Shown here: in pieces, positions 36,009 to 61,234 of the stretch
Layout: every line of letters begins with the position of its first letter
How positions within the stretch are numbered: the stretch's first letter is position 1
Assembly: GCA_013791935.1 (NCBI GenBank)
Contig: VMSV01000238.1
Span: 18,045-82,044, forward strand
Direction: 5' to 3'
DNA length: 64,000 nucleotides
Origin: Desulfobacteraceae bacterium
GTDB taxonomy: Bacteria; Desulfobacterota; Desulfobacteria; Desulfobacterales; UBA5616
Program-made: the position numbers and the translations under genes
Notes under the pieces: model-generated
Database searches by the model: none
Told to the model about the DNA's origin: nothing
What the model saw: the letters and a program-made list of their open reading frames with translations, nothing else

Positions 36009-36009
36009 A

Positions 36010-37098: not shown

Positions 37099-37112
37099 AG
37101 GGGATTCCGGCC

Positions 37113-46100: not shown

Positions 46101-49100
46101 AAAGGCCAGCACGTTGGCTTATCCCCCGATGGTTCCGTGTGGGTAAAGACAACGGCCGGCAACGGCCTGAATATTAAAAATGTCGATGTGGTTAATGCAG
46201 ATAAGGCCGCTTTTGAAATCGGTTATGGCCGGATGAAGGAATCCGGGGACCTCATTTCCGGAAAATACCATGATTCAAAAATCACGCTTCAACGAGATAT
46301 TGCAGATAAGTGGACCGTTTACCATGAAGCCGAGCATTGGGCTGAAGACATGGGTTTTCTTTCCTTGGGGGAAATCAATGCCATCAACCGGGCCATTCGC
46401 CAGGCAAAGGGTAAACCCTCAGCAGAAAGCCGAGCGAAATGGATAGAGGAAAATCTTTATAACCGGGACATAGATAGGGAATCAAGGCTTGGTCAGATCC
46501 TTCAGAAGATCCGGGACTTTATTGATGCCCTGGTGAATCTTGCCTTTAAAACTTCACGGGGCGTTGCCCGGTCTTTTGAAAGCGGTAAAGTGTTTGACCG
46601 GGAAGGAGCAGCGGCAGCGACAAGCCCGGAGAGATTCAAGCTTGCAGACCGGTCTGACCCAAACCATGCCATTGCCAAAAAATTCAACGAGGCTCACCCG
46701 GGTCATGACTTGCATTATGACGGGATTCAGGAAATGGACCCGTTGCCTTACCCGGATAAGTACCAGTTCACGGCATACGAAGGACCGGCAGAGGGTGCGA
46801 CCTTCCTTGTCGATTCTCTGGATACGACCGCCATTAAAAAGAGTCTTGATTACATGGTGGAGATCCGTAAGGGAAAGCTTCCGCAGTATTCCATTGCCGG
46901 ACCCCGTGGAGCCCGTGGAGAAACATCCATCAACCTGGATTATGCCAAAGACATGGACAGGAATAGTGCAAGCCGGGAAATGATATGGAGGGAAACCGGA
47001 TGGTGGATCGGCCCGGATGGTAAATGGCGTTTTGAGATTGACGATAGCAAAGCCGCACTGAACAAATTGAGCCGCACAACCATAGCGGATGCCATAGCCA
47101 TTAAAAAGGATGCTTTTGTACCCCTGTCTGAAATCCTGTCTCATGATGAGCTTTTTAAGGCCTACCCGTTTCTAAATAACGTCACTGTCCGACTTATCTA
47201 TGACTCCAAAATAGCATCACAGAACGGTGGTCTGATCATGATTGGCTATGACCAGCATGGCAAGGTTGACAGATCGGCATTGCTGCATGAGGTTCAACAC
47301 GCCATCCAGGATGAGGAAGGGTTCGCCGCTGGCGGAAACTACCGGAACATGCCCTCGGATCTTACCAACCCGAAAGTTGAAGAGCACAAAAATCTTGCGC
47401 TTTTTTACATCAAAAAGAGCCAGGGGGAAACGAACCAACTTAAAATCAAAGTATCCCACGATCTTGCCCGAAAGCATATCGAAATTGCAAAAACCTATGC
47501 CCAATTCCAGGCATATCAGCTTTTGGCCGGGGAAGCCGAGGCCCGTTTAACGCAGGAAAGGCTCAAAGTTGACAAGAATGAAGCCCCCTGGAAAACCCTT
47601 GAGAAGATGCTCAAGAAAGAAGGACTGTTGGGAGAGGGCCAGTTTCCCGAAGATGTTCTAATCAAAAAGGGGCAAACCGGCGCCAATCTCCTTGAAACCA
47701 TAGATGACGAACTGGAAGAGCACAGCCTTTCAGCCATCGAGTATCTTAAAGCCCTGGCGGCGAAGCCCAACTTGACCAGGAAGGGGAAAGATGATCTTTC
47801 ATATTTCAATGATCTGTTTTTGTCTATCCCTGCATTTTTCAAAGATAAAATCCCGGCAGTCGCGGCCATGTTCCGGGCCACACAGGAACGGCAAGATCAA
47901 TATCATGAGAATGTTTTTTACCTGGAAAATCATAATGACGTGAATACCGTCAAAGCCTTTTCAGATTTACGGAAGGCCGATCAGAAAAAATATGAAGAGG
48001 TTTCAAAATATCTGGTGAACAATGACCGGGATAGGAACGGATACCGGGTAAAGAAAAACAGAAAGGGTGAATGGAAGGTCCTTTCAAAAGACAGCAAGGA
48101 AGTTCTGGCCACTTTCAAAAATGAAGCCGAGGCCATTGAATCCGCCATGAAGCATGAGGCCAATGACTTGAGAGAATCCGGATTCAATCCGCAGCAGGTA
48201 GGGGCTGTAATGGCCTTCAGGACCTCCACGAACAAGGGCTTTGATGTTCTCATGGGTGCCATGAAGAACCTCATCCAGAAATATGCAGAGATAGGAAGGG
48301 AACTTCCCCCGGTGGTTACCATGGAGAACGGCAAAGAGGTTGAGATCAATCTTGAAACAGCCATGGCCATGATGGGGGATATGAGAGGTTATTATTTTCC
48401 CAGGATCAGGAAGAGGGGCGGTTATGTTCTGACGGCCTTTAAGGGTGAGGACAAGAAGCTGTTGACCTTCGGGACCCCGTTCGGAATGAACATAGAAAAA
48501 GCCCGATTGGAAAAGAATGGATGGGATGTCCAGACCTCAAAAAGCAAAAAGCTTGGTGAAGACGTTTTTGACATGGCCGGGGAGCTGGTGAAAACGCAGC
48601 AGATTGTCAATGCCGCCCTGAACAAGCTCGAAAAGTCCGGCGATACCCTGGCGGATAAAGACATCGAGGCCATTCTGAATGAAACGGAAAGCGTTTTTGC
48701 CGCGGCAATGGCGGAGCAGATCGCCAATGTGATCCGGGAAAGAGGTTCCAGGGTTCACATGACCCGGCGAAGTGAGGACTATTTCACCGGGTATAATGAA
48801 GATCCTGAAATCGTGATCGCTGAATATATCCGGTCCCTTTCCGGGGGAGAGGCCAAACGGGAAATGGTGGTCAAGCTTCTCCGGGCCTTCACCGGTACGG
48901 AAATATCGTGGAAAGAATTCAAGGAAATGAACGGCGAAGCTGAATTCAAGGATTATAAAAACTTTGTCCGGTCCAGGATGATCGATCAGACAGAACAACC
49001 GAACGCCTTTAAGTGGGGAAAAGCCTACATTTCCGAGGTCACGCGCAACCGTGAACTTTCTGAAGAGGTGATCGGGACCATCAAGGGACTGGCAGTGGCA

Positions 49101-50486
49101 AAATATCTTGCCTTCAGGGTTTTTTCCGCCCCCTTGATCAACCTTACGGCCCTGGCCACGTCGGTTCCGGCCTCCATGAAAGGGGCAGGAATTCCCCTCC
49201 GGAAGGTCCCCCGGTTGCTTGTGTCTGCAATGAACAAATACCGGATGCTGAAATTCACCGATGGTTCCGGATTGAGTGATGAGGACAAGCAGATTTTCCA
49301 CCATATTCAGTTGCAGGGATGGGATAACCCTCAGTTCAATTCAGAAGCGTTCAATGTTTTAAGGTCCAAGCTCGGAAGGGGATATGATTCAATCCTGGAA
49401 AAGGCCATGTTCACGTTTTCAGAATCGGAAAAGCTGAACCGGGTTGCTACCATTTTCGCAGCCTACAAAGGCCTGAAGGCAAAGAATCGGAATTTGTCTC
49501 TGGATGATTTGATGGAAAAGGCAAAACAGGTATCCGACGATTCTCACGGTATTTACAACAAAGGGAATTACCCCTTCATGGCCATGGGGAGCAACCCGGC
49601 TGCCCAGGTTGCAAAGATGTTTTACGTTTTTCGGACCTTCTCCCACACCTATCTGTTGAATATGCGGAAACTCGGATTCGAGCAAAAGGATTATGCCGCC
49701 CTGGCATATATGCTGATTTCACCGGCGATTATTGCCGGGGCCGGGGCTTCGGTTGCCATGGCCATTGCCAATGCCATCCTTCCGCTTTTTGGGGTGGATG
49801 ATCCGGAAGAGGACCTTTACCTTGCCATTGGAAAGCAGTTCGGGGGAACGGCGGAAAGCTTTGCACGGTTCGGTGCCGTGGGCGCTGGTGGTCATGGCAT
49901 TACGATGAAGGGTTCTCTGGCTATTGGTGTGGGTGACATGCCGACTTCCATGGGTGAACTTTTGGGCGCCCCTGGAAGCGTTTTATCGGACATCTTCATT
50001 GATGGCATCCCGGCCATGGCCAGGGGGGATGTTTCCAAGGGTTTTGAGAAAGTGTTGCCCACGGGCATCGGAAACCTTTTCAGGGCCTACCGCGAGAACG
50101 CAGAGGGGATTTCCACCAGGACAAACGCGCCTCTTTTTTACGGGACCGAACCGGTTTCGCCTTCGCCGGTGGAAACCTTTTACCGGACCCTTTCCTTGAA
50201 CCCTGCCAGGATTGCCGGGATCAGGGAAAGACAGTGGAAAGAGAAAGAAGTGGAAGCCCGATTGAACGAAGCGAGAGCCGCCATTTATGCAAGACTGAGA
50301 AAGTTTTATCTCGGAAAGGCAAGGGATAAGAGCCAATACGCAAAGATCATGGCCGAGATCCAAGACTTTAACGATGAAGCCATAGCCCGAAAGCTTTCCC
50401 CGATCACGGCAAGAAGCATCAAAACGAATATGAAGAGGGCCTTCAGGCCTTCTCGTCGGGAAAGGTTACGAGCGGTCAATGAGTAG
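37113..50486 (+). CDS. Giant polyvalent ejected protein: methyltransferase, SNF2-type helicase, two zincin-like sites, membrane-active end (4457 aa)
   Basis: One uninterrupted frame of 13.4 kb. Order of parts: N-terminal domain with Gly/Ala membrane-like segments (about 160-200); acidic linker with repeats of Glu/Pro/Ala; a conserved AGYHIEAGARSF region (about 1080); hydrophilic linker (1166-1235); N6-adenine methyltransferase with ILEPAVGTGNF at 1357 and NPPF at 1424-1427; SF2 helicase with GSGKT (K2061), DEAH (2219-2222), LTGTPVSNS and QREGRIVRQGN (2613); HExxH at 3071-3075 and again at 3392-3396 (LLHEVQHAIQ); a hydrophobic C-terminal domain (about 4100-4300) like LPD38. Such polyvalent proteins are injected with phage DNA (compare P1 DarB) and protect it from restriction. 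Confidence 0.9.
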   Translation: MGLLDFQSTYTPKKKTFYDEDETKVAPDIKKAFQEGKKVLKSQVERVGDPLMPISQDQIVEMGKASIQDQRGYDFLGGAKVLAAGLPRVPVHMVGKAIETVQGQAGADVVNPDFFERISQGVRKWESDKQAEIGEKYKDRKFLPGIKVSDVGSLPENLAYSVNSAGAGIGAGMASSAATGGNPVAGYTAGMAAAGEVAYRGTTYDFMREVLTEFDNNLKTERGSGLTEEEQTVVKNQFEKEATETGLWEALPEAIGGGIGFKILTSPLKGIMTKILGEKLGEKATTNILAKIAGSQIEELSTETITQMGQTDVRGRAGLEGGKKVDWTKAGDWIEALKEVAPQTVLLSAVMGGAIAGGNRVHDNRKIRALDKSIKDDEYKKIPNDEFGNEVLARTLDYATELQKTRPKEQRVQNAVQKLTDEIAFRKQSPDAAIAPEEPKAVFVAEVGRKLATDEISISDIQELKKDPNVQGLGVDDDLNKIIISKKGEALAPKPEEEPAQAVETQAQAVEPEQSALPVTPEEVQAQEPEANGMLQMESEDIGGLVQWADRFNSGLDQKSQRQLSSVIDGAKKGNPEDIETLWKNFEFTTNSETGVSPPVPEDIKSLTISTNGTNIESSGDETFVRSPSKAENVGGKARQTGFNKIPDAPEGFEKVYKPYGAQGAGYYYARIAESSVNDISTNTPEIVNAESVGQGEVPTDKETLTVEKPQDELVQKIDSAISLPTGLSGAKPRYSYGNKQFDLTFKNDIDKAAYIAAQEKPSKKDAEYLKFVAEKTGLSEDEIRDHGRSVKQTIKDIAAKSNDIEIIVPGHPIVKKTEAAPSTPKLTTKELTPVDKSEKEPHGKREKAMAEYNAFIASIPQHLKDKVGDVIKENPISPSSQKLRVARALAKATTGAQAETSVSAAEAPAVPKPVEKKAETSEPVTRESFQKSLERKGTAIGPNGQTYSIQEQGEGNYYVRTVKDGIRFENGGGYPAKWSMEYARQKAVDEAFGIEYEFTSLETGKKTTETIPDIPSGKAPIEKAVEPAVEPEPTAAAEPKAKPTYGEGNKVFTKEAADAARELLRKKLSRVSTGLDPELVQAGIQLAGYHIEAGARSFVNYAKAMLEDLGAAAKPYLRSWYEAVRYYPGFENKDMTEAADIEKVDIDDITDYNNKETAVNKGGQDEQIRPINERLPEREGSQEGQGDVQRPIESALPSQGRTGDKTERKPDKRRVDGSRSRGNGESGPSDYSITNADSLGKGGPKQKFKDNLAAIRLLKQIGDHGDSLGYDQARPEEQSILVKYVGWGGLQQAFRRPDGSIAKGWESEVAELEDLLSEKEYAAAIKSTRNAHYTNQPIIKAVYSALGRLGFTHGKILEPAVGTGNFIGLMPKKTRSKSRITGIELEPLTASISKQLYPNQNIVQSGFQNVTLAPNSYDLAIGNPPFGDEKLFDPENKDLKNFSIHNYFFAKSLKAIRPNGLLAMVVSSSMMDKISDSQRSWINDRAEFLGAIRLPNNAFRGSAGTDVTTDIVFLRKLEEGETSKGEAWLNLKRVKGNGNDWRINEYFANHPDMMLGALAPNKLFPAEIVDGVYDAVPGMTAIEGIDFEKALAEAVQRLPEKVYKAGKTFEEVQKAKILVSDPGFAMPFGYTLDNKGQATRRLPDVNGERQYEMVEYAGAPISGTRLERFKGLLGLRDDVRRLIRAEIADDSSMDSLRAKLNKDYDAFIKEFGFISQTVNASVLQDDPSDLPLLRSLESNFDKGISRAVARSTGQAHREPSAKKSAIFTVRTREPYREVTKADNAKDGLFIVLRENGFVDIDRIASLTGKTVEEVSRELEGDIFQNPETESWETAEYYLAGNVKQKLKDAQAAAQKEPSFQVNVKELEKVQPEDVPPDLITFKIGASWMPSEVYEAFSRDVLKSDIQVRHIESTGTWSIGVNSSSPTEHGTPQISGIELYSRLLQGKEIAIYERDKDGNRFLNRDYTQAAKDKASDLHQAFLDWALSNQRYRDVIAKEFNDKVNTTIETKANGSHMIFPGMGIINTGAKRDEQLRPHQKNAIWRFIQKGKGIADHVVGSGKTFISIATGLEMKRMGLVKKPMYAVPNHLVGQWASDFQKLYPGSNVLAVTKKDFTKKRRQEFLARIATGDWDAVLIAHSSFGFIKMPYEHEYKFYQEQIKQYKEAIVEIRAAEGAKSLTVKQMQDAQGKLEEKLKKLSEKEKENVVDFSELGVDALFVDEAHEFKNLFYVTKKTRIAGLGNPEGSKKAFDMFVKTQYLLDANNDKGVFFLTGTPVSNSISEMYTMMRYLDYSKMKKMGITHFDQWASMFADDITDWEVDPTGTRYRLQTKLDFMNVPGMMAFYNDFADTVSTNDLKQISKDNGAIWPIPEIEGGKPELAVAESSDLQKSFADYVVHRFDNMPKDPKIDNPLKATGEAMKAALDIRLINPSLPDHPGSKVNKCVENVFKTYQDWAKKKGTQLVFCDLSVPKKGRGKHAAEIMAVKDEMRELEKRMADETDAEASAELEERYSSLADQFEKYSPAELMAADSEFSVYDDIKAKLIKKGIPSDEIAFIHDANTDIQKETLFGSVRSGSIRVLIGSTSKMGAGMNVQNKLVALHHLDAPWRPSDLEQREGRIVRQGNEFFNDSMKTGEPFKVKVLRYSTKESLDTRRWQIIERKASTIQQLRSGETKWGEKIEDVLGEAANAAEMKAASSGNPLILEEIQTRKAIEKLEIKKRNDRGIRFKYERDISAANNMEGRLEDILKDIERDAELVAANPKDKTPQGWAVQIDGQVYKAKVVDVPTNDKQAAKEAEEKNAEALKTAKGKFAKDLGKALKRFDQPGAVESFDVEYRGLIWNVDRTVWGDIKFIPDLNGLGLHNRTPNIHYNLKDVVSPEGLLVRMDNALDAIVEGKDRSLGIHKREADFAFKKRAIAQAELAKKSNNFDQQIAELKLRHSQIIAELQADKKQDNGRKDFSMWGGPVIEATQAPEQYSKKSGKRNFSSVSENDIQSIFKGQHVGLSPDGSVWVKTTAGNGLNIKNVDVVNADKAAFEIGYGRMKESGDLISGKYHDSKITLQRDIADKWTVYHEAEHWAEDMGFLSLGEINAINRAIRQAKGKPSAESRAKWIEENLYNRDIDRESRLGQILQKIRDFIDALVNLAFKTSRGVARSFESGKVFDREGAAAATSPERFKLADRSDPNHAIAKKFNEAHPGHDLHYDGIQEMDPLPYPDKYQFTAYEGPAEGATFLVDSLDTTAIKKSLDYMVEIRKGKLPQYSIAGPRGARGETSINLDYAKDMDRNSASREMIWRETGWWIGPDGKWRFEIDDSKAALNKLSRTTIADAIAIKKDAFVPLSEILSHDELFKAYPFLNNVTVRLIYDSKIASQNGGLIMIGYDQHGKVDRSALLHEVQHAIQDEEGFAAGGNYRNMPSDLTNPKVEEHKNLALFYIKKSQGETNQLKIKVSHDLARKHIEIAKTYAQFQAYQLLAGEAEARLTQERLKVDKNEAPWKTLEKMLKKEGLLGEGQFPEDVLIKKGQTGANLLETIDDELEEHSLSAIEYLKALAAKPNLTRKGKDDLSYFNDLFLSIPAFFKDKIPAVAAMFRATQERQDQYHENVFYLENHNDVNTVKAFSDLRKADQKKYEEVSKYLVNNDRDRNGYRVKKNRKGEWKVLSKDSKEVLATFKNEAEAIESAMKHEANDLRESGFNPQQVGAVMAFRTSTNKGFDVLMGAMKNLIQKYAEIGRELPPVVTMENGKEVEINLETAMAMMGDMRGYYFPRIRKRGGYVLTAFKGEDKKLLTFGTPFGMNIEKARLEKNGWDVQTSKSKKLGEDVFDMAGELVKTQQIVNAALNKLEKSGDTLADKDIEAILNETESVFAAAMAEQIANVIRERGSRVHMTRRSEDYFTGYNEDPEIVIAEYIRSLSGGEAKREMVVKLLRAFTGTEISWKEFKEMNGEAEFKDYKNFVRSRMIDQTEQPNAFKWGKAYISEVTRNRELSEEVIGTIKGLAVAKYLAFRVFSAPLINLTALATSVPASMKGAGIPLRKVPRLLVSAMNKYRMLKFTDGSGLSDEDKQIFHHIQLQGWDNPQFNSEAFNVLRSKLGRGYDSILEKAMFTFSESEKLNRVATIFAAYKGLKAKNRNLSLDDLMEKAKQVSDDSHGIYNKGNYPFMAMGSNPAAQVAKMFYVFRTFSHTYLLNMRKLGFEQKDYAALAYMLISPAIIAGAGASVAMAIANAILPLFGVDDPEEDLYLAIGKQFGGTAESFARFGAVGAGGHGITMKGSLAIGVGDMPTSMGELLGAPGSVLSDIFIDGIPAMARGDVSKGFEKVLPTGIGNLFRAYRENAEGISTRTNAPLFYGTEPVSPSPVETFYRTLSLNPARIAGIRERQWKEKEVEARLNEARAAIYARLRKFYLGKARDKSQYAKIMAEIQDFNDEAIARKLSPITARSIKTNMKRAFRPSRRERLRAVNE
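40609..40815 (+). CDS. Small gene nested in the giant gene, +1 frame (68 aa)
   Basis: AAAGGAGG (40596-40603) lies 5 bases before an ATG. The product (MNRYAQLTKDFLKEKAPKKV, then AEEMVRADLL) looks like a folded helical protein and resembles the short MNRYAQ-type proteins I know from beside DarB-like helicase genes. In the main frame the same bases encode a hydrophilic linker without expected fold. So this seems to be a former separate gene, overprinted when two genes were fused, or a kept overlapping gene. Confidence 0.6.
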   Translation: MNRYAQLTKDFLKEKAPKKVKEMSSDQLNQLCQAKAEQAIKQKESLINAGWMDHEAEEMVRADLLTIP

Positions 50487-50944: not shown

Positions 50945-51415
50945 ATGGACATAAAGACAGATATCGGATCAGCTTTGGATTTTGCAAAAAGCCTTGTGGA
51001 TCGTTGGTTTCCCCCGAGCGCAAACCCCGAAGACAAATTGAAGGCCAGCATCGAGCTTGAAAAAATGCTCAATGACCGGGAAAATGTTCTGGTTCAGGCA
51101 AAAGCCAGCATTATGACGGCGGAAATGAACCAGGAGGACAAATACACCAAGCGAGGCAGGCCAACCATTATTTATGCAGGTTTGGCATTCATCGGTTTGG
51201 TTCATGTGGTTTTTCCCATTATCGCCTGGGCTGCATTGGTGATTAAGGGCGGTACGATTACGCTGCCTGCCATTGCTCTTCCAGATGAATTCTGGATGGC
51301 GTGGGGTGGTGCTGTATCCATTTACATTTTGGGGCGGTCCTCGGAGAAAGCCGGTGGAGAAGTGGGCGGGCTCATGGGCAAGATGTATGGCATGATCTCA
51401 GGAGCCAAAAAATAG
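50945..51415 (+). CDS. Holin, 3TM family type
   Basis: 156 aa. A soluble N-terminal helix with KASIELEKMLNDREN precedes RPTIIYAGLAFIGLVHVVFP, a second hydrophobic segment (WAALVIKGGTITLP) and a third (FWMAWGGAVSIYILGRSSEK), as in the 3TMs phage holin family. Makes the membrane pores that let endolysin reach the wall. Last gene of the core late region. Confidence 0.8.
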   Translation: MDIKTDIGSALDFAKSLVDRWFPPSANPEDKLKASIELEKMLNDRENVLVQAKASIMTAEMNQEDKYTKRGRPTIIYAGLAFIGLVHVVFPIIAWAALVIKGGTITLPAIALPDEFWMAWGGAVSIYILGRSSEKAGGEVGGLMGKMYGMISGAKK

Positions 51416-51626
51416 GCGCTTTACCAATCAAGTTTCTTCATATCCCTCCTCATCATTTTCAGTTCAAACCATTGATCATCAGGCTGCTGCTGGGCTTTTG
51501 GCGTTGTAGCGGTTCAATCTTCATTTTGTTTGGGGCCATTTCCATATCCCACGCCTCTAATTCTGTCTATCTGTCGGTTCAGTTTTCATTTTAGGTATGT
51601 TTTAAATTTATGTTTTTTTTGGATTG

Positions 51627-51749
51627 TTTCCATGTTATTGCATATCAAAGCGCAAACATGGAAATTTCAGCCCATTATTTTCCATGTTTACCCCTTTAAT
51701 ATCACAAAACATGGAAAATATTCTATGTTATATAGGTAATAACATAGAA
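51627..51749. repeat. Cluster of inverted TTTCCATGTT-type repeats at the start of the cargo
   Basis: TTTCCATGTT at 51627 faces AAACATGGAAA at 51654; TTTTCCATGTTT at 51678 faces AAAACATGGAAAA at 51706; a variant pair TTCTATGTTAT (51721) and ATAACATAGAA (51739) follows. Six related half sites in 123 bases. The gap 51416-51813 is otherwise AT-rich with a diverged CGGTTCA-TTTTCATTTT repeat (about 51509 and 51574) and no gene. Could be operators for the cargo or nested palindromic elements. Confidence 0.6.
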
Positions 51750-51813
51750 AATTTGCCATGTATCACCCGCTGTTGGCACAAGGAAATATAAGGTAAAGCT
51801 GGAGACTAAACTA

Positions 51814-52305
51814 ATGGAATTAATTTTGTTCTTTGCTTTTCTCTTTTTCGTCGCAGGCTTATTCGGTGAAATCGATAAGGACAAACAAAAACGCAATAGA
51901 ACTGAAAACGAACGGCGTGAAAAAGAAATACGAGAGAAACAACGACAAGAAAGATTTATTCAAGTAAACAAGAAAAAAGAAGAAAAATTATTGCAAGAAA
52001 AGAGAAGAAACAGTGAAATAGAAAAGGCAATTAGAGCAGGAAAAGATGTTTGTAATAATTGTAAAACGATAAAACCAAAACGATGCTCATGTGGAAATTG
52101 CATTGAATCATCAAGATGTCATATATCATTCCAATCAAATTCGCAATGCACTGATTGCGCCCTGAAAGAAGCCAAACAAAAAGGCCTGGATATTTGTTAC
52201 GGATGCAACACTATCAGACCGAGCAGATGCTATTGTGGTAATTGTAATACTTGCTATGGTGATGCAGGTGGCGGTGAATGTCAATCGTGCAGTAGTGATG
52301 ACTAA
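51814..52305 (+). CDS. Membrane-anchored protein with two matching Cys-rich modules (163 aa)
   Basis: N-terminal hydrophobic anchor (LILFFAFLFFVAGLFG), a charged coiled coil (about 20-75) and two related zinc-type modules: CNNCKTIKPKRCSCGNC and CYGCNTIRPSRCYCGNC, each C-x2-C and C-x-C-x2-C. It looks like a membrane-tethered internal tandem duplication. Family not recognised. No strong ribosome site (AAGGTAAAG). An attC-like palindrome follows the stop codon. Confidence 0.7.
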   Translation: MELILFFAFLFFVAGLFGEIDKDKQKRNRTENERREKEIREKQRQERFIQVNKKKEEKLLQEKRRNSEIEKAIRAGKDVCNNCKTIKPKRCSCGNCIESSRCHISFQSNSQCTDCALKEAKQKGLDICYGCNTIRPSRCYCGNCNTCYGDAGGGECQSCSSDD

Positions 52306-52334
52306 AAACAAATATAATATAAAATTTGAAAAAT

Positions 52335-52458
52335 GCCAACAATGCGCTTCACCGCGACCGGGGCCACGGTGGCCCTATTTTGCGTGTGTGTAGTTATCAT
52401 AATGTTGTTCCCTCGCCAGCGCTTTCCAGGCCCCGGCGGGTGAGCTTCAGCGTTATAC
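52335..52458 (+). repeat. attC-like site 1 (integron-type recombination palindrome)
   Basis: Left arm GCCAACAATGCGCTTCACC and right arm GGGTGAGCTTCAGCGTTAT pair imperfectly (CACC/GGTG, an unpaired extra T, AAC/GTT ends), with an inner GGGGCC/GGCCCC stem. About 124 bases, in range for attC. Lies after the stop of the 51814 gene and before the next gene, as in cassettes. Confidence 0.55.
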
Positions 52459-52471
52459 AAGAGAGTGATTT

Positions 52472-53095
52472 ATGTGGAGACTCATCGTAATTATTCTTTA
52501 TTTACTGATATTATGTCCATTTATAGCTTTTGCTGAAGAGGTTAGATATGGAGAAAGGGTCGTTATATTTGGTTCTTCTGCGCACGATATGTCTCTTCGA
52601 AAGGAGCTGGATTCGTGGTACAGGCAGCAATTTATGCAGGATTGCGAGGGTGTTTCAACATCAAGCAACAGCATTGATGCAGTTAAGCGAGCGCTTTCTG
52701 GTGATAAACAGCAATTTGTATATGGGCCAAATGATCCGTTTAACAGGAAAGCAGATGTGCAAAATCTTCGGAGTAGCTTAAATAAAAAAGGGCAAGGAGA
52801 GATTGTACATGGATGGATCGATGCTGATTCAAAGGGGTACGCTAATTTCCATCGAGAACGGTTTGTATGGTTAGTTCTGAATGATAAGGTGTATCCGCTT
52901 CATACGAATGCCAGCATGGCTCTCTCTCGGCTTTTTGATGGTGTCCCAGATTCTATACTGAAAAAGGCAGGGCTTGTGCATTCTTATGAGCGTGGAAAAA
53001 CCATTTTGGATCAATTGAAAATGGAAGAGCACTCATTCAAAAGGTTTCAAGCAGGGAGTGGTGGTCAACCTTTTCCAAACTGCTCGGAAAAATAA
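52472..53095 (+). CDS. Secreted protein of unknown function (207 aa)
   Basis: Clear signal peptide (MWRLIVIILYLLILCPFIAF, cleavage after FAEE-like AFA). Mature part about 185 aa with WIDADSKGYANFHRERFVWL and a Cys pair near the ends (C58-like QDCEG, C-terminal PNCSEK). No family recognised. Probably periplasmic. Confidence 0.7.
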   Translation: MWRLIVIILYLLILCPFIAFAEEVRYGERVVIFGSSAHDMSLRKELDSWYRQQFMQDCEGVSTSSNSIDAVKRALSGDKQQFVYGPNDPFNRKADVQNLRSSLNKKGQGEIVHGWIDADSKGYANFHRERFVWLVLNDKVYPLHTNASMALSRLFDGVPDSILKKAGLVHSYERGKTILDQLKMEEHSFKRFQAGSGGQPFPNCSEK

Positions 53096-53219
53096 TAACA
53101 ATATCTATACATAACTCTTAGGGCGATAAGATGAGTAGAGAGCAATACCAATTATATGCAATTGCTAAATACTATTTTGATTTGGCATAAAGAGGCTGTA
53201 ATAATTCCAGGGTGGAAAA

Positions 53220-53282
53220 CTGGTATCAGATCTTGAATAGTAAATAATCGCAATTTAATCACTATTCAAGATCTGACACCAG
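53220..53282. repeat. Near-perfect 22-bp inverted repeat (REP-like element)
   Basis: CTGGTATCAGATCTTGAATA plus GT faces the reverse of the same with one mismatch, around a 19-base loop. AGATCTTGA within GGTGTC-like ends resembles palindromes mobilised by IS200-like REP-associated transposases. Two looser relatives of a GGTCAAGT...TGACTCA element lie after the next genes (about 53643 and 54797). Confidence 0.7.
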
Positions 53283-53316
53283 TACTTTGCTATTTTTATT
53301 ACCAAAAGGGGGGTGT

Positions 53317-53637
53317 ATGAAAAGTATAGTAGCTAAGAGATTTATATTCACGGCAATCACATTGTGCGTGGGACTTATGATTTCGAGCTGCGCAATGAGC
53401 AAAAAAACATATTTACCAGATGGAAGTGAAGGCTACAGTATCAGCTGCGATGGGGCTGCTGTCGGAATTAATGTGTGTTTCGAAAAGGCTGGGGAAATAT
53501 GCGGTTCTCGTGGCTATGATATTCTGAATCGTGAAGGTCAATTTGTACCATTTGGTGTAGGTTCAGCGACTAATAACCAAGCCTTCGTCACATACGGAGG
53601 CTTCAACACAAAAAGTATTATGATTCGATGTAAGTAA
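53317..53637 (+). CDS. Small lipoprotein (106 aa)
   Basis: Start at 53317 is set by GGGGGG. Basic N-terminus, hydrophobic helix and lipobox LMISSC (lipidated Cys). Mature part GYSISCDGAAVGINVCFEKA, with CGSRGYDILN, matches small conserved Gram-negative lipoproteins. In prophages such proteins are sometimes superinfection-exclusion factors; not shown here. Confidence 0.75.
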   Translation: MKSIVAKRFIFTAITLCVGLMISSCAMSKKTYLPDGSEGYSISCDGAAVGINVCFEKAGEICGSRGYDILNREGQFVPFGVGSATNNQAFVTYGGFNTKSIMIRCK

Positions 53638-53765
53638 TAATCAGTGGGTCAAGTTTGCCGGTGACTCAAGTTGAAGACTTGCGTCAAACCATGATTTGTA
53701 AATTAAAAGAATTAAAATCACAAATCAAAATTTAACCATTAACCGTCTTAAAGGAGAGAAAAGTC

Positions 53766-54071
53766 ATGAGAAAAATTATTGGTGCGTTTTTTTTGATTAT
53801 GTTTTTCCTTGCGAATATTGCTATTGCAAAGGATGTTCACGTTGATGGCTATTACAGGAAAGACGGGACTTATGTAAGTCCGCATATCAGAAGCTCCCCC
53901 GACAGTTCAAAGGCTAATAATTACGGTCCTTCAAGAGATTCCTCGGAATTAATGAATCCTCAATCACGTGATAATGATAATGACGGAACACCAAATTATT
54001 TAGATAATGATGATAATAATGATGGAATATCTGATGACAATGATCCGAATCAATATTCTGATGAAGAATAA
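53766..54071 (+). CDS. Secreted protein with calcium-binding Asp repeats (101 aa)
   Basis: Signal peptide to about residue 21. Then YYRKDGTYVSPHIRSSPD, a small motif seen in many secreted proteins, and thrombospondin type-3-like Asp/Asn loops (DNDNDGTPNYLDNDDNNDG) that should bind calcium. AAGGAG ribosome site. Followed by the nuclease gene, possibly in one operon. Confidence 0.75.
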   Translation: MRKIIGAFFLIMFFLANIAIAKDVHVDGYYRKDGTYVSPHIRSSPDSSKANNYGPSRDSSELMNPQSRDNDNDGTPNYLDNDDNNDGISDDNDPNQYSDEE

Positions 54072-54091
54072 TCCAAGGAGGTAAATATTGT

Positions 54092-54775
54092 ATGAAATCA
54101 AATAGATTGATTAAATTCAGTGTATTTTTGTTTTTATTTTTTGCCGCATATTCCCTGGCATGGTCTGAACCACTGACAAAATGGACAGGAAAAGTTGTGG
54201 GTATATCAGATGGGGATACCATAACGGTTATGAAAGACGGAAAAGGCGAAAAGATTCGTTTGGCTGAAATTGATTGCCCTGAGAAAGCCCAGCCATTTGG
54301 TGCGAAAGCCAAAAAATTTACATCAGATTTATCTTTCGGGAAAGAAGTAACCGTTGCTCCATCAAACATAGATAAATATGGACGCATAGTGGCACAGATT
54401 ATTTTGCCGGATGGGACCAGTTTAAATGATAATTTGGTAAAAAATGGCTTTGCGTGGCAATATAAAGCATATTCATCAAGCAAAAGATTGGCGGATATTG
54501 AGGCCGAAGCTAAAAAGGATAAGGCAGGGCTATGGGCTGATGCAAATCCTGTTGCACCCTGGAAATGGAGGCATGGGAATGCCGAGAACAATACGCGTCC
54601 GGACAATGCTCTTGTGGCAAGCGGTTCCGCCACTTATCACGGGAATTTAAATTCAAGAATATTCCATTCCCAGACTTGCCGGTATTTCAATTGCAAAAAT
54701 TGCACGGCGGTATTTAACAGCAGGGAGGAGGCTATTAATGCAGGATATAGACCGTGTAAAATTTGCTCCCCATAA
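54092..54775 (+). CDS. Secreted thermonuclease with C-terminal Cys-rich Ada-like domain (227 aa)
   Basis: Signal peptide (LFLFFAAYSLAWS). SNase domain: ISDGDTITVMK (DGD), KIRLAEIDCPEKAQPFG (catalytic Arg and Asp region), NIDKYGRIVAQI (second Arg). The C-terminal FHSQTCRYFNCKNCTAVFNS and YRPCKICSP form a four-Cys metal-binding module, as in secreted nucleases. Cuts DNA or RNA in the periplasm using calcium; the calcium-binding upstream protein may be linked. Signal for export suggests action on incoming or external DNA. Confidence 0.88.
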   Translation: MKSNRLIKFSVFLFLFFAAYSLAWSEPLTKWTGKVVGISDGDTITVMKDGKGEKIRLAEIDCPEKAQPFGAKAKKFTSDLSFGKEVTVAPSNIDKYGRIVAQIILPDGTSLNDNLVKNGFAWQYKAYSSSKRLADIEAEAKKDKAGLWADANPVAPWKWRHGNAENNTRPDNALVASGSATYHGNLNSRIFHSQTCRYFNCKNCTAVFNSREEAINAGYRPCKICSP

Positions 54776-54948
54776 TTTTAGCATTAGTGGGCTGGGGTCA
54801 AGTCCGATGTTGACTCATGTTGAGGGTTAGAGCCAGACCATTTGCACATAAACAATCCGTCCCGGCTTTTTTGTGTGGGACAATGGATAAAATTCTATTC
54901 GTTAGAAGCAGCAACGGATAGACCTTCACACAATGGAGGATTCAAAAG

Positions 54949-55587
54949 ATGGGATCAATTACAAGAGATTGCCCTCATTGCCATTCCCGTAATAACACTT
55001 TTACTGCCTTTGCAAATATAAAAGATCCAAATTATCAAACCAATCAGACCTATTTAACTGCTTTTAGTTGTGGTAGTTGTTGCGGCGGATATTTTGCTAA
55101 AATTAAATTGCACGCTGCTGGTTACCCAGTAAATTTTCCAGGCGACATTGATAAAAATGGGAATATGTCCATTATGGAAGAATATCCCAAACCAATAACT
55201 TTAGAAACCCCTCAGTATTTACCTACAAATATAGAATCCTTTTTCATACAAGCAGCTGAAAGCCTGAATAACAAGAATTTTGACGCTTCTTCAATGATGT
55301 CAAGGAAGGTGTTAGAAGTCGCAGTAAAGTCTCTTAATCCAAGCGAAAGTGGAAATCTTTATAGCCGAATTGAGCAGCTTCATAGCCAGGGAAAAATCAC
55401 TGATGATCTAAAAGATTGGGCACACATTATCAGAGATGATGGCAATGAAGCCGCTCATGAGGCAGAACCTGTTAATTTAGCATTTGCGGACGAGCTTTTA
55501 TCATTTACAAAGCTGTTTTTATTGTACACATTTACAATGCCTGAAATGGTAAAAAATAAAAAAGGTTTGAGTGAAAATAGCTTATAA
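54949..55587 (+). CDS. Zinc-ribbon plus DUF4145 protein (212 aa)
   Basis: N-terminal ribbon (CPHCHSRNN, CGSCCGG) and a helical DUF4145 domain with SMMSRKVLEVAVKSL and IRDDGNEAAHE, the RDxGN-AAH signature. DUF4145 is HEPN-like and is often found in restriction and anti-phage genes. GGAGG start. An attC-like palindrome follows the stop. The gap 54776-54948 before it has a GTCCC/GGGAC hairpin with a GTTAGAA-type end that might be a degraded site of the same kind. Confidence 0.8.
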   Translation: MGSITRDCPHCHSRNNTFTAFANIKDPNYQTNQTYLTAFSCGSCCGGYFAKIKLHAAGYPVNFPGDIDKNGNMSIMEEYPKPITLETPQYLPTNIESFFIQAAESLNNKNFDASSMMSRKVLEVAVKSLNPSESGNLYSRIEQLHSQGKITDDLKDWAHIIRDDGNEAAHEAEPVNLAFADELLSFTKLFLLYTFTMPEMVKNKKGLSENSL

Positions 55588-55655
55588 TCACAGTGCTGGG
55601 CTCCGACTGGGGTTTCGCTGGCACTCAACCTCAACAGGGTCAGCACAACGTTAAC
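55583..55655 (+). repeat. attC-like site 2
   Basis: TAATCACAGTGCTG pairs with CAGCACAACGTTA over GTGCTG/CAGCAC and the TAA/TTA ends; length about 70 bases. It begins at the stop of the DUF4145 gene and ends just before the next start. The right box GTTAACC is one base off GTTRRRY. Confidence 0.5.
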
Positions 55656-55667
55656 CTTAGAGAAACA

Positions 55668-56267
55668 ATGGGGGAAAATTATTTAATAACGGATGGATTT
55701 GTTGAGGCAGTTTCATCTTTTGAAACGCTATCCGATTCGCTTAAACAGATACCATTTGACCCATATCGGTGGAAATGGGCTATCCTCGCCATGCATAGCG
55801 GATTGCAAGGAATGATGATTCTTGCACTTCAAGGATCACATGGTTTGCACGTTTTAAAAAAGGAAGATGCCAAGCGATGGCTTGATGCCCATGAAAATGG
55901 TGGCCCGTATCCTACCGATCTTCAGTTAGATGGTTTTTTAAGCCTTTATAAGAAAATAAAAGGCGAACTAATGATAATGTATGTGGATAGTAAGAAATTT
56001 ACCCCAAAGGGCACAGAAGGCGACTCGATCAAATTTTTAAACAGGTTAAGAAATGAATATGTGCATTTTACTCCGCGAGTTTGGGCGTTTGAATTGGTAG
56101 GGTTGCCCGATATTTTCATGGATTGTCAGAATATTGCTGAATTTTTAGCTTGGCAATCTGGCAACGTTTTTTGGAGGGAATCAAGTCTTAAAAAACGCAT
56201 TAAGAATGCTTTTAGCTTGTCTCGTTCGTCCCTATTGAAACTTAGAGAAAAGTATGAAAACGGTTAA
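55668..56267 (+). CDS. HEPN-like protein in a cassette (199 aa)
   Basis: Start at 55668, after the palindrome (the longer frame begins inside it). Predicted all-helical. RNEYVH (R-x4-H) in the second half matches the HEPN active motif of RNA-cutting toxins. The stop codon overlaps the next palindrome, and the piece between the two palindromes (about 665 bases, one gene) has exactly the make-up of an integron cassette. No antitoxin partner is seen next to it. Confidence 0.72.
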   Translation: MGENYLITDGFVEAVSSFETLSDSLKQIPFDPYRWKWAILAMHSGLQGMMILALQGSHGLHVLKKEDAKRWLDAHENGGPYPTDLQLDGFLSLYKKIKGELMIMYVDSKKFTPKGTEGDSIKFLNRLRNEYVHFTPRVWAFELVGLPDIFMDCQNIAEFLAWQSGNVFWRESSLKKRIKNAFSLSRSSLLKLREKYENG

Positions 56268-56320
56268 CCATTCGCTTGTGCCGACCCAAAAAGCCGGGCG
56301 GCACAGTTCAACCGTTATGC
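56262..56320 (+). repeat. attC-like site 3
   Basis: 59 bases, the classic attC size. Left end GGTTAACCATTCGCTTGTGCCG and right end CGGCACAGTTCAACCGTTAT pair through GTGCCG/CGGCAC, with one extra unpaired base in CTTGTGCC, then TAAC/GTTA. Overlaps the stop of the HEPN-like gene. This is the strongest of the three. Confidence 0.65.
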
Positions 56321-56344
56321 ATATAAAAATAAGGTGGCAATTCA

Positions 56345-57220
56345 ATGAAAAGTAACAGCCAAATGCCGAAATATCATGAACTAATGAACCCTCTGCTTAA
56401 GGCCTTGCAAGAATTAGGAGGATCTGGTTCTATTGAAGAAATAGCGCAAAAAGTTTCTGAATTGTCTGGCTTGCCAGAAGAAGTGTTGAATATTCCACAC
56501 AACCCAGAAAAAAGCAGTCAAACAGAAATCGAATATCGTTTAGCATGGGCTCGTACCTATTTAAAAAAATACGGCCTATTGGAAAATTCAGATAGAGGTA
56601 TTTGGTTAATTGTTCCAGAAAAGCATAATGTAAAATCGGTCGATCCTCAAGTTGTTATAAAAACTGTTCGAGACGAGCATAAGAGGCAAAAGGAAACTCC
56701 TGAAAAAGAAAAAGTTTCTGAAGAAGAAAAAGATATTGAAATCCCAGATGAAGCAGAGACTTGGCGTAGCACCCTCCATCAAACCCTCATAAATGAAATA
56801 TCGCCAGATGCTTTTGAGCGATTAGCAAAAAGAATTTTAAGAGAATCTGGTTTCGTACAAGTTGAAGTTACCGGCCGTTCTGGAGATGGTGGCATAGACG
56901 GTAAAGGTATAATGCGATTGAGTGGCCTATTGAGTTTTCACGTAATTTTTCAGTGCAAAAAATATAAGGGGGCTGTCACTGCCTCGGATATCCGTGATTT
57001 TCGGGGCGCCATGATTGGGCGAGCAGATAAGGGATTGTTTATCACAACAGGGACCTTTACTCGTGACGCCATACGAGAAGCGACAAGAGATGGCGCGCCA
57101 CCAATTGATCTTGTTGATGGAGACCAACTGGCGGATAAGCTCAAGGAATTGGGCCTCGGAATTAAAAAGGAAATGGTCGAAAAAATCTCAATTGATATCG
57201 AATGGTTCAAATCGATTTAA
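56345..57220 (+). CDS. Mrr-family type IV restriction endonuclease
   Basis: 291 aa. N-terminal Mrr winged helix (about 10-100, with RLAWARTYLKKYGLL and GIWLI), a charged linker and a PD-(D/E)xK domain: SGDGGIDGKG with D185 and IFQCKKY with Q203-x-K205. Mrr enzymes cut DNA with methylated bases. AAGGTGG start. It faces, and stops 67 bases from, the end of the methyltransferase operon on the other strand. Its fate with the three methyltransferases is a puzzle noted in the findings. Confidence 0.88.
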   Translation: MKSNSQMPKYHELMNPLLKALQELGGSGSIEEIAQKVSELSGLPEEVLNIPHNPEKSSQTEIEYRLAWARTYLKKYGLLENSDRGIWLIVPEKHNVKSVDPQVVIKTVRDEHKRQKETPEKEKVSEEEKDIEIPDEAETWRSTLHQTLINEISPDAFERLAKRILRESGFVQVEVTGRSGDGGIDGKGIMRLSGLLSFHVIFQCKKYKGAVTASDIRDFRGAMIGRADKGLFITTGTFTRDAIREATRDGAPPIDLVDGDQLADKLKELGLGIKKEMVEKISIDIEWFKSI

Positions 57221-57287
57221 ATTGTATAATTATAAAAAAAACTATGGGTTCGAGGTTTGGTTTCGGCGTAATATAAAGTAAATTAAA

Positions 57288-59630
57288 CTATTTTGTACCA
57301 AATATATCAAACATGTATTTGGCTATAAGTAGTTCAAGCTCTTTCCCATTAACAGTATCCGTGCCTGTATTTATGGCTTCTTGTTCTGCTTGCTTAGTGA
57401 AATAAGATGTGGTTACCAATAATTTCCGTATGGCTCCCCTAGTAACTGCAAAACTATGTAGCCTCTGGATGGGTTCGGCCGAAACGGGATTTTTAAAGTA
57501 CCGTTTGCACTGCACAACGGTACTTTCGCCACTCGGGTTTAGACCAATAACGTCAACCCCTCTATCCCCAGAACGGCCTAACAACGCAATCTGAGTATAT
57601 CCTTGTGCACGAAGTAACTGGGCAACGAAAGCTTCAAATTCATATGGATTCAGAGCCAAGACGTGGGTCAAGCCTTTGGGAAGTGTGGGCAGAGGGCGTA
57701 GACGGAAATGCAAACCATCGGGCAAGGGTTCAGCGTAGGGTTCAATCATTGCTTTCATATCAATATTTTCAATTGTTGCTATTAGCTGACGCGTCCCATT
57801 TTCTACAAATTCAGAAAGCCGTAATAAAAATTGATCATAAGTGAAAATTTTGTCCTTAGCAGAAAGGTCTTCAATTATTTTTGGGATATAGGTAAAGAGC
57901 CGTTCGGTAGCTGGAGTATCAAAAAGCTGAAAAGAAAATGGGGTTTCAATTTTGGGAAGAAACTGGCCCTCTATTTTATCACAGTATCTTTCGAATAATT
58001 TTACTATTCGTAGCTCTTCCTTGGGAGAATTTACTGAACTTAACCCTTTAGATAAAAGCTTTTCTGAAAAGGCCTTCCGCCATTCAGAGAAGAAGAACGG
58101 TCGCTTTAAATTTTCCTGTAATTCGACTGCGGATTGATACACATATTGGTCTAAATCGTGATCTTCATAAAACTCTCTTCGGATGACAGGTTCTAAACGT
58201 AGGAAGAGCATAACGACATCTTTGGAAAAAACGTAAGAAGCTGATTGCTGAATTCGCATTGATGGGTCTGAGCTTCCAACATCGATGCTTAATAATGGCT
58301 CAAATCCTGCCTTCCTTGCCACCAATTTGATGCGGTTGAGATTACTCAACCATTGGCTGGCGGGAATAGGCCTAAAGAAAAGTGCCACATACTGATTTCT
58401 TTTTAAAACTCGGTAGCTGCTATGGAAAAAAACTTCTAAATCGGACCACCAGCGGTGGATGTCATGAACTTTCTTTCGGGAAGGGGCATCAGAAACCACC
58501 ATCTCTTTTTCAAGTCTGGAGCGGTCCGTTTTCAAGTTATAATTGATCCAAGGATGGTATAATTGAGCGCGTTCAAAGTATGCTGTGCCATCAGTCCAAG
58601 GAGGGTCGGTAAAAACGAGGTCCACAGATTCATTACTCAGTGCGCTAAAAAAATCACGAAAATCGATCATTCGAATAGGGTTTCCCGGGGACTGAGTGAA
58701 TTTGTACTGTTTCATTCCATTCCAGCGCTTTTTATAATTTTCCTGATAAACGAAAAGCAGGTTATTTTCGCGTAACTTTTCGGGAGGACAATGCAAATCT
58801 TGGCTTTTGCTTCGGTAATCCTTATATTTTGCTTGCGGTAACATCGACAAAAAAACGTCCTCTAAAAAAAATTTTACGAGAAATGGGCTGCCCAAACCTT
58901 GTATGTTTTCCCATATTATTTTCAGCGCAAGTTTTGAACGATGTGGGAAAAGAGACCCATACACTGCAAATTTTTTTGAAAGATTTATGCGTGAGTTTTC
59001 AATCAATTTAGTATTGAATATTGTGTGCGTTGGAATAGAAGATAACAGAGAAAGGTGGTCTTCGTCGTTTTTATTAAAGAACTTCTCTTGGCAGTTACAG
59101 TATGGGCATTTGTAATTTCCACGATATTCAATGTTTTCACCCTTTTTGCCGAGGCGCTCATGATGAGTAACATCAGTGTACCTTAAGGGTTTACGATCAT
59201 AAAAAAGACTTTTGAATACGTGGTCAGCACCGCAGGTACATTTAGTCCAATAAAGTTTATCAAGTTCTGGCTTAATTTTCTTGATCAATTCATTATAGTT
59301 TGATTCCAATTCGGCCTTTGCTGGTAGTCTCCAAGGTGCACCCGAAAGGCGGTTTGTGTAAGGCTCCCATTCATTGGCAAGGAATTTGCGGCCTATAGAC
59401 AAAATAGCATAGGGATGAATACCTGAGCCGGAAAATGGATCTGCGACAATGCCTTCTTTAGGGGAAAGGTGCCTTACGATGGATTGGGCTTTACGTTTAT
59501 CCTTTCGTCCAACAAAGGGAAACAATTGATCAGTTTGAGGATTGCCATCAATGACTGACAATTCTGTGGTAAGTGCGTTTACTGTATCTCGAACCATCTC
59601 CTGCTCATTTTCGCTCAAAAGCCAATACAT
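57288..59630 (-). CDS. DNA methyltransferase fused to Mrr-type endonuclease (780 aa)
   Basis: Start at 59630 (GGTGATT); the frame opens earlier but overlaps the previous gene. SAM motif VADPFSGSG near residue 61, zinc-type Cys pairs (CTCGAD, CPYCNC), catalytic DPPW near 341, then a helical region and a C-terminal Mrr-like PD-(D/E)xK domain (about 680-780) with SGDRGVDVIG and VVQCKRYF. So one chain carries both modification and restriction, like type IIG/IIL enzymes but with an Mrr nuclease. N-terminal part resembles the 529-aa methyltransferase upstream. Confidence 0.85.
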   Translation of the reverse strand: MYWLLSENEQEMVRDTVNALTTELSVIDGNPQTDQLFPFVGRKDKRKAQSIVRHLSPKEGIVADPFSGSGIHPYAILSIGRKFLANEWEPYTNRLSGAPWRLPAKAELESNYNELIKKIKPELDKLYWTKCTCGADHVFKSLFYDRKPLRYTDVTHHERLGKKGENIEYRGNYKCPYCNCQEKFFNKNDEDHLSLLSSIPTHTIFNTKLIENSRINLSKKFAVYGSLFPHRSKLALKIIWENIQGLGSPFLVKFFLEDVFLSMLPQAKYKDYRSKSQDLHCPPEKLRENNLLFVYQENYKKRWNGMKQYKFTQSPGNPIRMIDFRDFFSALSNESVDLVFTDPPWTDGTAYFERAQLYHPWINYNLKTDRSRLEKEMVVSDAPSRKKVHDIHRWWSDLEVFFHSSYRVLKRNQYVALFFRPIPASQWLSNLNRIKLVARKAGFEPLLSIDVGSSDPSMRIQQSASYVFSKDVVMLFLRLEPVIRREFYEDHDLDQYVYQSAVELQENLKRPFFFSEWRKAFSEKLLSKGLSSVNSPKEELRIVKLFERYCDKIEGQFLPKIETPFSFQLFDTPATERLFTYIPKIIEDLSAKDKIFTYDQFLLRLSEFVENGTRQLIATIENIDMKAMIEPYAEPLPDGLHFRLRPLPTLPKGLTHVLALNPYEFEAFVAQLLRAQGYTQIALLGRSGDRGVDVIGLNPSGESTVVQCKRYFKNPVSAEPIQRLHSFAVTRGAIRKLLVTTSYFTKQAEQEAINTGTDTVNGKELELLIAKYMFDIFGTK

Positions 59631-59634
59631 ATAA

Positions 59635-61224
59635 TCACCAATTTTCGATGGATGTGAGTATTCTACGAATATCTTTGTATGATTTTGAAAGAAGACCAAA
59701 ATAATTGAATTTTAGACCTGTTTTGATAACCGCAGAGTATTTATTAAAATAGGGAGTGTCCTTCGGTAATCGTGACAGTTCGTCGAGGATAATTGTTCTG
59801 ACCTGATTGATATTATTGGGCGGACAGGTTTTGGTCTTTTCTTTTTTGAAGATAAGAATAAGGTCTCCGTCAAGGGTCTTGCCAGGCGAAGTTACGGTTT
59901 TTATTGAACGACGTTGCTTCGCTATGGGTATAACGTCAAGGATGGTTAAGTCATTCGCAATCGCTTCATCGCTTAGTGCTACCCAATGCTTGATGATGTG
60001 GTCCTGGTAAAACCAAATTAGAACACCCTCATGTCTCAAAAGGTCGGCGCATGCCTTTAAGCCTTTACGTAATCTCTGAATATAGTCGTTGGTATCATTA
60101 ACCCTTGAAGGTGCGTTAGTCTTAACGATCTCATATTGGAATGCACATGTGGGTAGTCTTAAACCAATCAACTCAATCCAAAGCGCCGAATATTCTAAAT
60201 AGGGGGCTTGGTCTGAGTATGGTGGATCTGTCAGGACCAGGTCGGCTTGCCCGGGTTTCACGTAATTGGGGATTAACGATTGGATCGGGGCGTTGTAAAG
60301 TTGTACCAATTTCGACAGTGTCTGCTTGTCCTTCATTGTGACATTTGCCTTCAGCCAGTCAACCGCACTCTCAATAGTCTGAATTTTATTAAATAGTATG
60401 GGTATTGGATTACGTGATGTCAGATATTTTTTAGGTCTCCAATATGGCCATTGCGATGAAGCCTTTTTATCGCTTAGTCGTAGAAGCGGCAAGGAAGCAG
60501 ACAGAAGCAATTTGAGCGTTGTCTCGTTTGCCGAGCCATACTTCCCTGAGGAGATCAATTGGAGAAATAAATTAATGGCTACTTGATTTTTATACTCATA
60601 GTAATGACTAAGGTTTGCACCGGCCGGGATTGCAATCCTCGAATTTTGGCGTAGATTCAATGATTTAAAGTCAATTGGGTTAGAGGATGAATTTGAAATT
60701 TCTCGTTTGTTCTTCCAATCGTCACTTGGCTCTTCAACCTTCCTGCCCTTCAGAGTATTCCCCACCTTTTTTTTAAGAACTACTTCAGTTGGATTGAGTG
60801 TGAATTTACCATCTTCGAATTCTCCGTTTACAAAAAACCTTTCTCTTTCTACGAAAAAATCATCACGATAGTGAAACAAAGGTAACAGCTGGGCACTTAA
60901 GTCATCAAGAAACTTATACGCGGCCTTTATTTTTTCTTCTGGATTTTCTATCAGTTCAACAATTGAATTAGTTATAAAGATTGCCAGAGGATTCAAATCC
61001 GATGCGATTACCTTCCTTCCTACCGAAAGGGATGCAAAAACAGTTGTTCCTGAACCCACGAAAGGGTCCGCAACTATATCACCGTCTTTAGAAAATTGGG
61101 TGATGAGATGTTTGACAATATTTAGGGGTTTTCTTGCCCAATATGGGTGTATCAACCCGACAGGGGTGTCGTGTTCTGGAGAGATGTTTTCGAAGATTTC
61201 GGTGAGGCTCAATACGTCTTTCAA
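59635..61224 (-). CDS. DNA methyltransferase, DPPY type (529 aa)
   Basis: TTG start (AAGAGG upstream). HPYWARKPLNIVKHL, then VADPFVGSGTT near residue 51 and DLNP, are features of the HPYWARKP group of N4/N6 methyltransferases; DPPYSDQAP is near 331. The motif I then DPPY order is the alpha/gamma type. 10 bases after the Dam-like gene stop. Residues about 120-200 are an insert with no recognised motif. Recognition probably depends on that region. Confidence 0.85.
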   Translation of the reverse strand: MKDVLSLTEIFENISPEHDTPVGLIHPYWARKPLNIVKHLITQFSKDGDIVADPFVGSGTTVFASLSVGRKVIASDLNPLAIFITNSIVELIENPEEKIKAAYKFLDDLSAQLLPLFHYRDDFFVERERFFVNGEFEDGKFTLNPTEVVLKKKVGNTLKGRKVEEPSDDWKNKREISNSSSNPIDFKSLNLRQNSRIAIPAGANLSHYYEYKNQVAINLFLQLISSGKYGSANETTLKLLLSASLPLLRLSDKKASSQWPYWRPKKYLTSRNPIPILFNKIQTIESAVDWLKANVTMKDKQTLSKLVQLYNAPIQSLIPNYVKPGQADLVLTDPPYSDQAPYLEYSALWIELIGLRLPTCAFQYEIVKTNAPSRVNDTNDYIQRLRKGLKACADLLRHEGVLIWFYQDHIIKHWVALSDEAIANDLTILDVIPIAKQRRSIKTVTSPGKTLDGDLILIFKKEKTKTCPPNNINQVRTIILDELSRLPKDTPYFNKYSAVIKTGLKFNYFGLLSKSYKDIRRILTSIENW

Positions 61225-61234
61225 AATAAACCTC

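Follow-up and report, generated by a model that had tools for sequence, protein, structure and literature searches.

How can integron-type gene cassettes be accommodated in a temperate prophage that has no integron integrase of its own, and what could move them? This question is raised by a stretch of 64,000 nucleotides (the window, to which all positions given without a contig or locus name refer) that forms the right end of contig C104 (C104:18045-82044) in a Desulfobacteraceae genome of 4.7 Mb (270 contigs, contamination 5.79%). An earlier note made from the letters alone had described three palindromes in it as attC-like integron sites, carrying single-gene cassettes inside a prophage without an IntI-type integrase. 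Our analysis leads us to a reading that we consider likely: a prophage integrated at a tRNA-Gly gene carries an attI-type site, the first 15 codons of an intI gene, two intact attC sites and two or more complete cassettes, and probably depends for their mobility on an IntI integrase encoded elsewhere in the host genome.

Judged by its homology, the segment directly before the first cassette consists of an attI-type region and the first codons of intI. The intI remnant on the minus strand (51586-51633) comprises 15 codons followed by a stop codon, and its translation aligns with the intI start of loci L009, L052 and L058. Adjoining it on the plus strand, the attI-type region (51634-51772) is recognized from its homology to host contig C23, which ends at GTT, with the crossover G/TT at 51772. 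Read as reverse complement, positions 51579-51764 match L009 731-916 on contig C23 with 80% identity over 186 bp (E 5e-43), and this part of L009 comprises the first codons of the chromosomal intI gene of the host and its upstream region. The C23 intI gene is intact (TIGR02249, about 430.7 bits). When the attI region was searched in 96 genomes, this one included, matches were obtained in 14, several of them being short pieces of its palindromes; the region adjoins an intact IntI gene in L009 and L052, and a partial one in L058, L053 and L056. In the window, L009, L052 and L053, the homology stops at the GTT, and each locus then presents a first attC whose R'' box is, by eye, complementary to this edge. 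Six of the seven positions agree at the attI of L047, also by eye. These comparisons covered the window, L009, L052, L053, L047, L046 and L055, with L051, L056 and L058 left out.

The locus consequently has the attI with G/TT before its first cassette that a complete integron possesses, and it lacks an intact intI gene beside this attI. The claim that no IntI gene is present in the window is borne out by our searches: none of the 22 IntI-profile matches in the genome (E<=1e-3) falls into the window, and tblastn with two host IntI proteins found nothing there at E<=0.01. Outside the window, the host genome contains two full IntI genes, these being the two profile matches that exceed the cut-off. 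The earlier designation of the locus as resembling a CALIN, a cluster of attC sites lacking integron integrases, accordingly holds for the integrase-less cassettes in a temperate prophage, but is incomplete, since attI and the first intI codons precede cassette 1.

The boundaries of the cassettes provide further evidence. When a cassette is inserted by integron recombination, its left edge is the half-site formerly paired with R'' in the attC of that cassette. In arrays of other genomes (14 loci supplied, 11 contributing; cassettes up to 2500 bp), 25 of 36 cassettes obey this edge rule at four of four variable positions, and 3/36 match the right edge instead. Within the window, GTTGGCA at 51772 is the exact complement (7/7) of the R'' box TGCCAAC of site 1, and GTTAACC at 55650 that of the R'' box GGTTAAC of site 3 (7/7). 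Nearly all of the 39 complementary 7-base pairs listed in the region are due to chance; these two carry weight because they fall on both attC sites, on the attI junction and on the edge beside site 2. They delimit, on the plus strand, cassette 1 (51773-52452; gene 51814-52305, 163 aa) and cassette 4 (55651-56314; gene 55668-56267, 199 aa), each with an R'' box complementary to its own left edge. Cassette 4, the interval between the second and third palindromes, measures 664 bp and contains one same-strand gene, just as had been read from the letters.

Whether the palindromes themselves are attC sites was assessed with several scores. Because an Rfam gathering scan reported two tRNAs only and offered no applicable library model for attC, we built a covariance model (R1) from an alignment (A1) of 21 short attC-type sites that occur in further genomes of the phylum, 20 of them on loci with a full or partial IntI match and one (L061) without, and applied it to the window with the filters disabled. 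As a second test, we derived from A1 a profile in which the loop length is free, with 40 Markov shuffles of the 64-kb window as null. Site 3 (56262-56320, plus strand, 59 nt) attains 46.1 bits in R1 (E 6.3e-8) and 49.4 in the free-loop profile, and site 1 (52334-52458, plus strand, 125 nt) reaches 48.5 in the latter. The shuffle maximum is 29.3, and the place that ranks next in the window attains 23.6. Both are real attC sites. The second palindrome (55582-55656, plus strand), in contrast, is not an attC by these tests: it is absent from the R1 matches at E<=10, scores 5.7 in a relaxed profile in which the left box is free, and in bottom-strand folding 100/200 shuffles are at least as stable (z 0.16). 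The corresponding counts are 4/200 for site 3, 23/200 for site 1, and 11/200 and 3/200 for two control attC sites. Its right end, GTTAACC (55650-55656), is nevertheless a genuine cassette boundary as judged from the edge complementarity, though the hairpin is no recognisable attC. Of the three palindromes, each noted as beginning at or just after a stop codon, sites 2 and 3 overlap one, and site 1 begins 29 nt past that of its gene.

Held-out sites are also recovered by R1, the one in L046 with 51.5 bits and the one in L009, beside the host IntI gene, with 24.2 bits. Across the whole host genome, for which 150 of 594 first-look candidates were scored, R1 yields 18 matches at E<=0.1, and site 3 ranks second among them. 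A first pairing score had singled out site 1 as the sole place in the window with a value of at least 30, missing sites 2 and 3; an orientation-sensitive version recovered none of the three at a cut of 31, at which the null yields 2.2 per 64 kb. Because the loops of long attC sites align poorly, their alignment (A2) was not turned into a model. With sites 1 and 3, located 3.8 kb apart, the locus has the minimum of two attC sites without an integrase gene that defines a CALIN, although only site 3 reaches significance in R1.

The prophage setting ascribed to the array in the earlier note is well founded. A 29-bp perfect direct repeat, identical with the 3' end of tRNA-Gly, occurs at 512-540 and 63078-63106 on the plus strand; the left copy (attL) closes the tRNA-Gly gene (466-540, by tRNA prediction), and the right copy (attR) bounds the element at its other end. 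Abutting the left copy, a minus-strand reading frame (571-1842) encodes a phage tyrosine integrase that is not of the IntI type (phrog_1, E 8e-13; Pfam Phage_integrase at E 0.005 only, under the cut-off) and that is not among the 22 IntI-profile matches. PHROGs matches on the plus strand within 6884-51415 identify a helicase (9777-11513), a terminase (16873-18435), a portal protein (19118-21307), a head closure protein (26070-27383) and a holin (50945-51415). In the relative G030, tRNA-Gly is directly adjacent to tRNA-Cys, and the junction equals that in the window; this arrangement represents the empty site. Attachment repeats, integrase, phage genes and this empty site together place the array inside the prophage, which possesses the att repeats, integrase, structural and lysis genes of a temperate phage. 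The integron stretch is located between the holin gene (end 51415) and methyltransferase and Mrr-type restriction-modification-like genes on the minus strand (57288-62497; Pfam, PADLOC), which belong to the prophage and lie outside the array. The GC content of the array is 39-40% versus 47.6% for phage positions 6884-50486.

Between the two whole cassettes, a plus-strand segment (52453-55650) with five open reading frames (52472-53095, 53317-53637, 53766-54071, 54092-54775 with SNase and Ada Zn domains, and 54949-55587 with DUF4145) would represent decayed or composite cassettes. The last cassette-like gene, encoding an Mrr-type endonuclease (56345-57220, in the segment 56315-57220, plus strand; Mrr_N and Mrr_cat in Pfam), follows site 3.

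As the platform resembles the host attI and the cassette edges look as attI x attC recombination would leave them, we read the locus as an integron platform. The phage presumably acquired it from an integron of a bacterium or from some other integrated element and presumably uses it as a cargo slot behind the lysis genes, the cassettes of which the host integron integrase, encoded elsewhere, would likely move in trans. That this enzyme might act on the attI and attC sites of the prophage is suggested by the similarity of the attI regions, and the phage itself would be expected to excise at its att sites. A wider scenario, which we put forward tentatively as possible rather than probable, is that temperate phages and other integrated elements of this groundwater community carry an attI dock without intI at which the host IntI loads and swaps cassettes in trans, so that the phage would be an interchangeable carrier between the integrons of different cells, with many of the cassettes being defensive.

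The same truncated platform is found in a second setting. Contigs G000:C133 and G073:C125 both start with the window stretch from 51567 and then continue with other genes, hereafter array B, and a further contig (G073:C148) is identical to window positions 51567-58665. The window version and array B are identical over exactly 141 nt. A contig of a metagenome-assembled genome (JAHIFE010000098.1; contig k141_509649, sample KR11_0.1) shows no difference from the window across the 5498 bases compared, and the accessible text of a study on Olkiluoto drillhole groundwater that includes OL-KR11 describes a MEGAHIT assembly with a k-max of 141 (PMC8275790). We infer that the 141-nt identity marks a branch in the assembly graph, at which two arrays would stand behind one truncated intI/attI start. 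Array B (L045) contains a cassette that obeys the edge rule (GTTAGAG at 1655, CTCTAAC at 2247), and it ends at a tRNA-Ser-like 3' end beside a tRNA-Val gene, followed by housekeeping genes that we take, from their reading frames (no family search was made), to be scpB, scpA, trpS and lysS. That the two arrays differ by a single cassette swap was rejected, since, in addition, about 34 nt of attI ahead of the junction are absent from array B. No match to the phage portal was found in G073, and the contigs common to the two bins may reflect mis-binning.

Several observations speak against a functional platform and need to be weighed here. The attI region of the host is only 80% identical to that of the window, and neither L046 nor L055 shows the edge rule at attI. 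In R1, site 1 is weak (second in the window, 11.4 bits, E 3.2), where its 75-nt loop is penalised, and its bottom-strand fold is unexceptional, with 23/200 shuffles being at least as stable. Even the first attC of the host integron (L009 92-149) scores 27.9 in the free-loop profile, which is under the shuffle maximum (R1 E 0.021), so that its assignment rests on place and boxes. The 3.2 kb between 52453 and 55650 contain no recognisable attC (no profile match of at least 14 between sites 1 and 3), and neither the R1 nor the profile scan detected one behind the Mrr gene. Site 2, this segment and the stretch after the Mrr gene thus indicate that part of the array has decayed. Together with the loss of intI, this is what one would expect of a frozen relic, a piece of a decaying integron whose cassettes arrived before or at its capture by the phage and are no longer mobile. 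The truncated intI start that also precedes the array on contig C133 fits such a history, since a start common to two arrays implies that the loss of intI is older than the present arrays. However, two attC sites and the attI junction have remained intact, with exact complementarity of their boxes, and the same 141-nt start precedes two different arrays; we therefore judge a relic to be unlikely.

An assembly error by which a prophage became fused with a fragment of a chromosomal integron would explain why the contigs of both genomes break at 51567-51568, at a common stretch of 141 nt that equals the k-mer length of the assembler for one of them, and the fragmentation and contamination of the host genome assembly add to this concern. 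Yet to the right of the array follows the same 29-bp tRNA-Gly att core as beside the integrase, and then tRNA-Cys as in G030. Since a matching att site would not be expected at the end of a misjoined piece, we regard such an error as very improbable. That the palindromes are ordinary terminators or dispersed repeats resembling attC is correct for site 2, which folds no better than shuffled sequence, and the region does contain a real dispersed palindrome (53219-53283, with AAGATCTGACACC ends), an element 92% identical to L046 11096-11157. For sites 1 and 3 this explanation is hardly tenable and was rejected in view of their R1 and profile scores, the left-edge rule and the attI homology. Both outcomes by which the earlier note would have been overturned, the lack of any attC match or an identity as ordinary dispersed repeats, failed to materialize for these two sites. 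The integron platform that would be served by an integrase of the host is consequently the explanation that we prefer.

Integrons and CALINs in phages are already known. The accessible part of the report by Qi et al. (2023; PMC9892861) describes a screen of 10,705 phage genomes that yielded three complete integrons, 17 CALINs and one In0 element; of six phage attC sites tested there, five were functional with IntI1. The variant found here appears to be an attI without integrase. The cryptic Shewanella prophage M16-3, as far as described there, resembles our locus in that an attI heads a cassette array (a CALIN) among phage genes; in contrast to it, M16-3 also has a complete integron with an intact IntI and a broken phage integrase, whereas here 15 intI codons remain and IntI is encoded elsewhere in the host genome. 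The 17 phage CALINs of that report share attC sites and cassettes without integrase, but attI and the intI start have been kept in the window. Complete integrons in temperate phages (Vibrio anguillarum p16, PMC9892861; L147) likewise combine attC sites and cassettes with phage DNA, and differ in carrying an intact IntI of their own. The chromosomal integron of the host (C23, L009) has the same crossover and the same edge rule at its first cassette as the prophage, next to the similarity in attI, but possesses an intact IntI and another first cassette. Keyword searches of the open-access literature brought up no prophage described as having attI and cassettes while lacking intI altogether, which does not prove that none exists. 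With a docking site in the phage and the enzyme in the host, the sedentary cassettes of chromosomal integrons would gain a possible exit route, and the use of integron sites by phages as exchangeable slots for defence genes becomes testable.

The cargo is probably in part defensive, as the predicted Mrr endonuclease, HEPN-like and DUF4145 proteins suggest. The DUF4145 gene matches PD-T7-4 in PADLOC (E 1e-5), and the product of the cassette 1 gene has no Pfam, PADLOC or NCBIfam match. The cassette 4 protein has an all-helical predicted structure (mean predicted local distance difference test score 90.6) and an invariant RN...H motif; in a fold search, HEPN-MNT toxins came closest, though weakly (best E 0.6; none at E<=0.001). 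Motif and fold type make a HEPN-like protein a lead for this cassette. A search for the same cassette in other genomes, as had been suggested, was rewarded: a homologue is directly followed by an attC-type site in 4 of 19 non-self genome loci (L125, L128, L131 and L133; free-loop profile cut 30, no more than 40 bases beyond the protein match), with L129 (27.5) below the cut. R1 with default filters (E<=1) has an adjacent match behind the gene in L128 only among these 19 loci (20.8 bits, E 0.043). The homologue in L133 (Ramlibacter) lies within a run of at least seven attC-type sites. In 37 of 82 homologues the longest contig measures at most 2000 bases, as would be expected of cassettes that fail to assemble.

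Scans of viral sequences with the holin, the exact 28-base attI stretch and the cassette 4 family returned no locus, and nothing in the phage collection matches the integron stretch. Positions 24136-37380 of the window are identical to the IMG/VR contig IMGVR_UViG_3300020171_000132. Another viral contig (L147; IMGVR_UViG_3300037424_003005, 2258-4722 and 6412-10612) has an intact IntI (335 bits versus a cut-off of 265). Three attC-model matches (24.7, 17.5 and 14.9 bits) lie upstream on the opposite strand, and portal, protease, decoration and major head genes follow immediately; this contig has the appearance of a complete integron within the head module of a phage.

A second, truncated intI copy of the host is located at L011 1-236 (G000:C227), 97.9% identical to C23 1044-1279 and followed by other sequence. 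In L047 (9508-15650; G000:C106), L051 and L055, attI-like stretches are followed by attC-type sites in apparently chromosomal surroundings, with no IntI match nearby in the DNA examined; attI platforms without intI may be common in this order. Within the phage, a single reading frame of 4457 aa (37113-50486) directly precedes the lysis region. About 270 bp before attR, the prophage contains a tRNA-Ser-like 3' end with some downstream sequence (62781-62812), which matches the intact tRNA-Ser of contig C173 and is of the same kind as the end that closes array B on contig C133; it is perhaps the trace of another element's attachment site.

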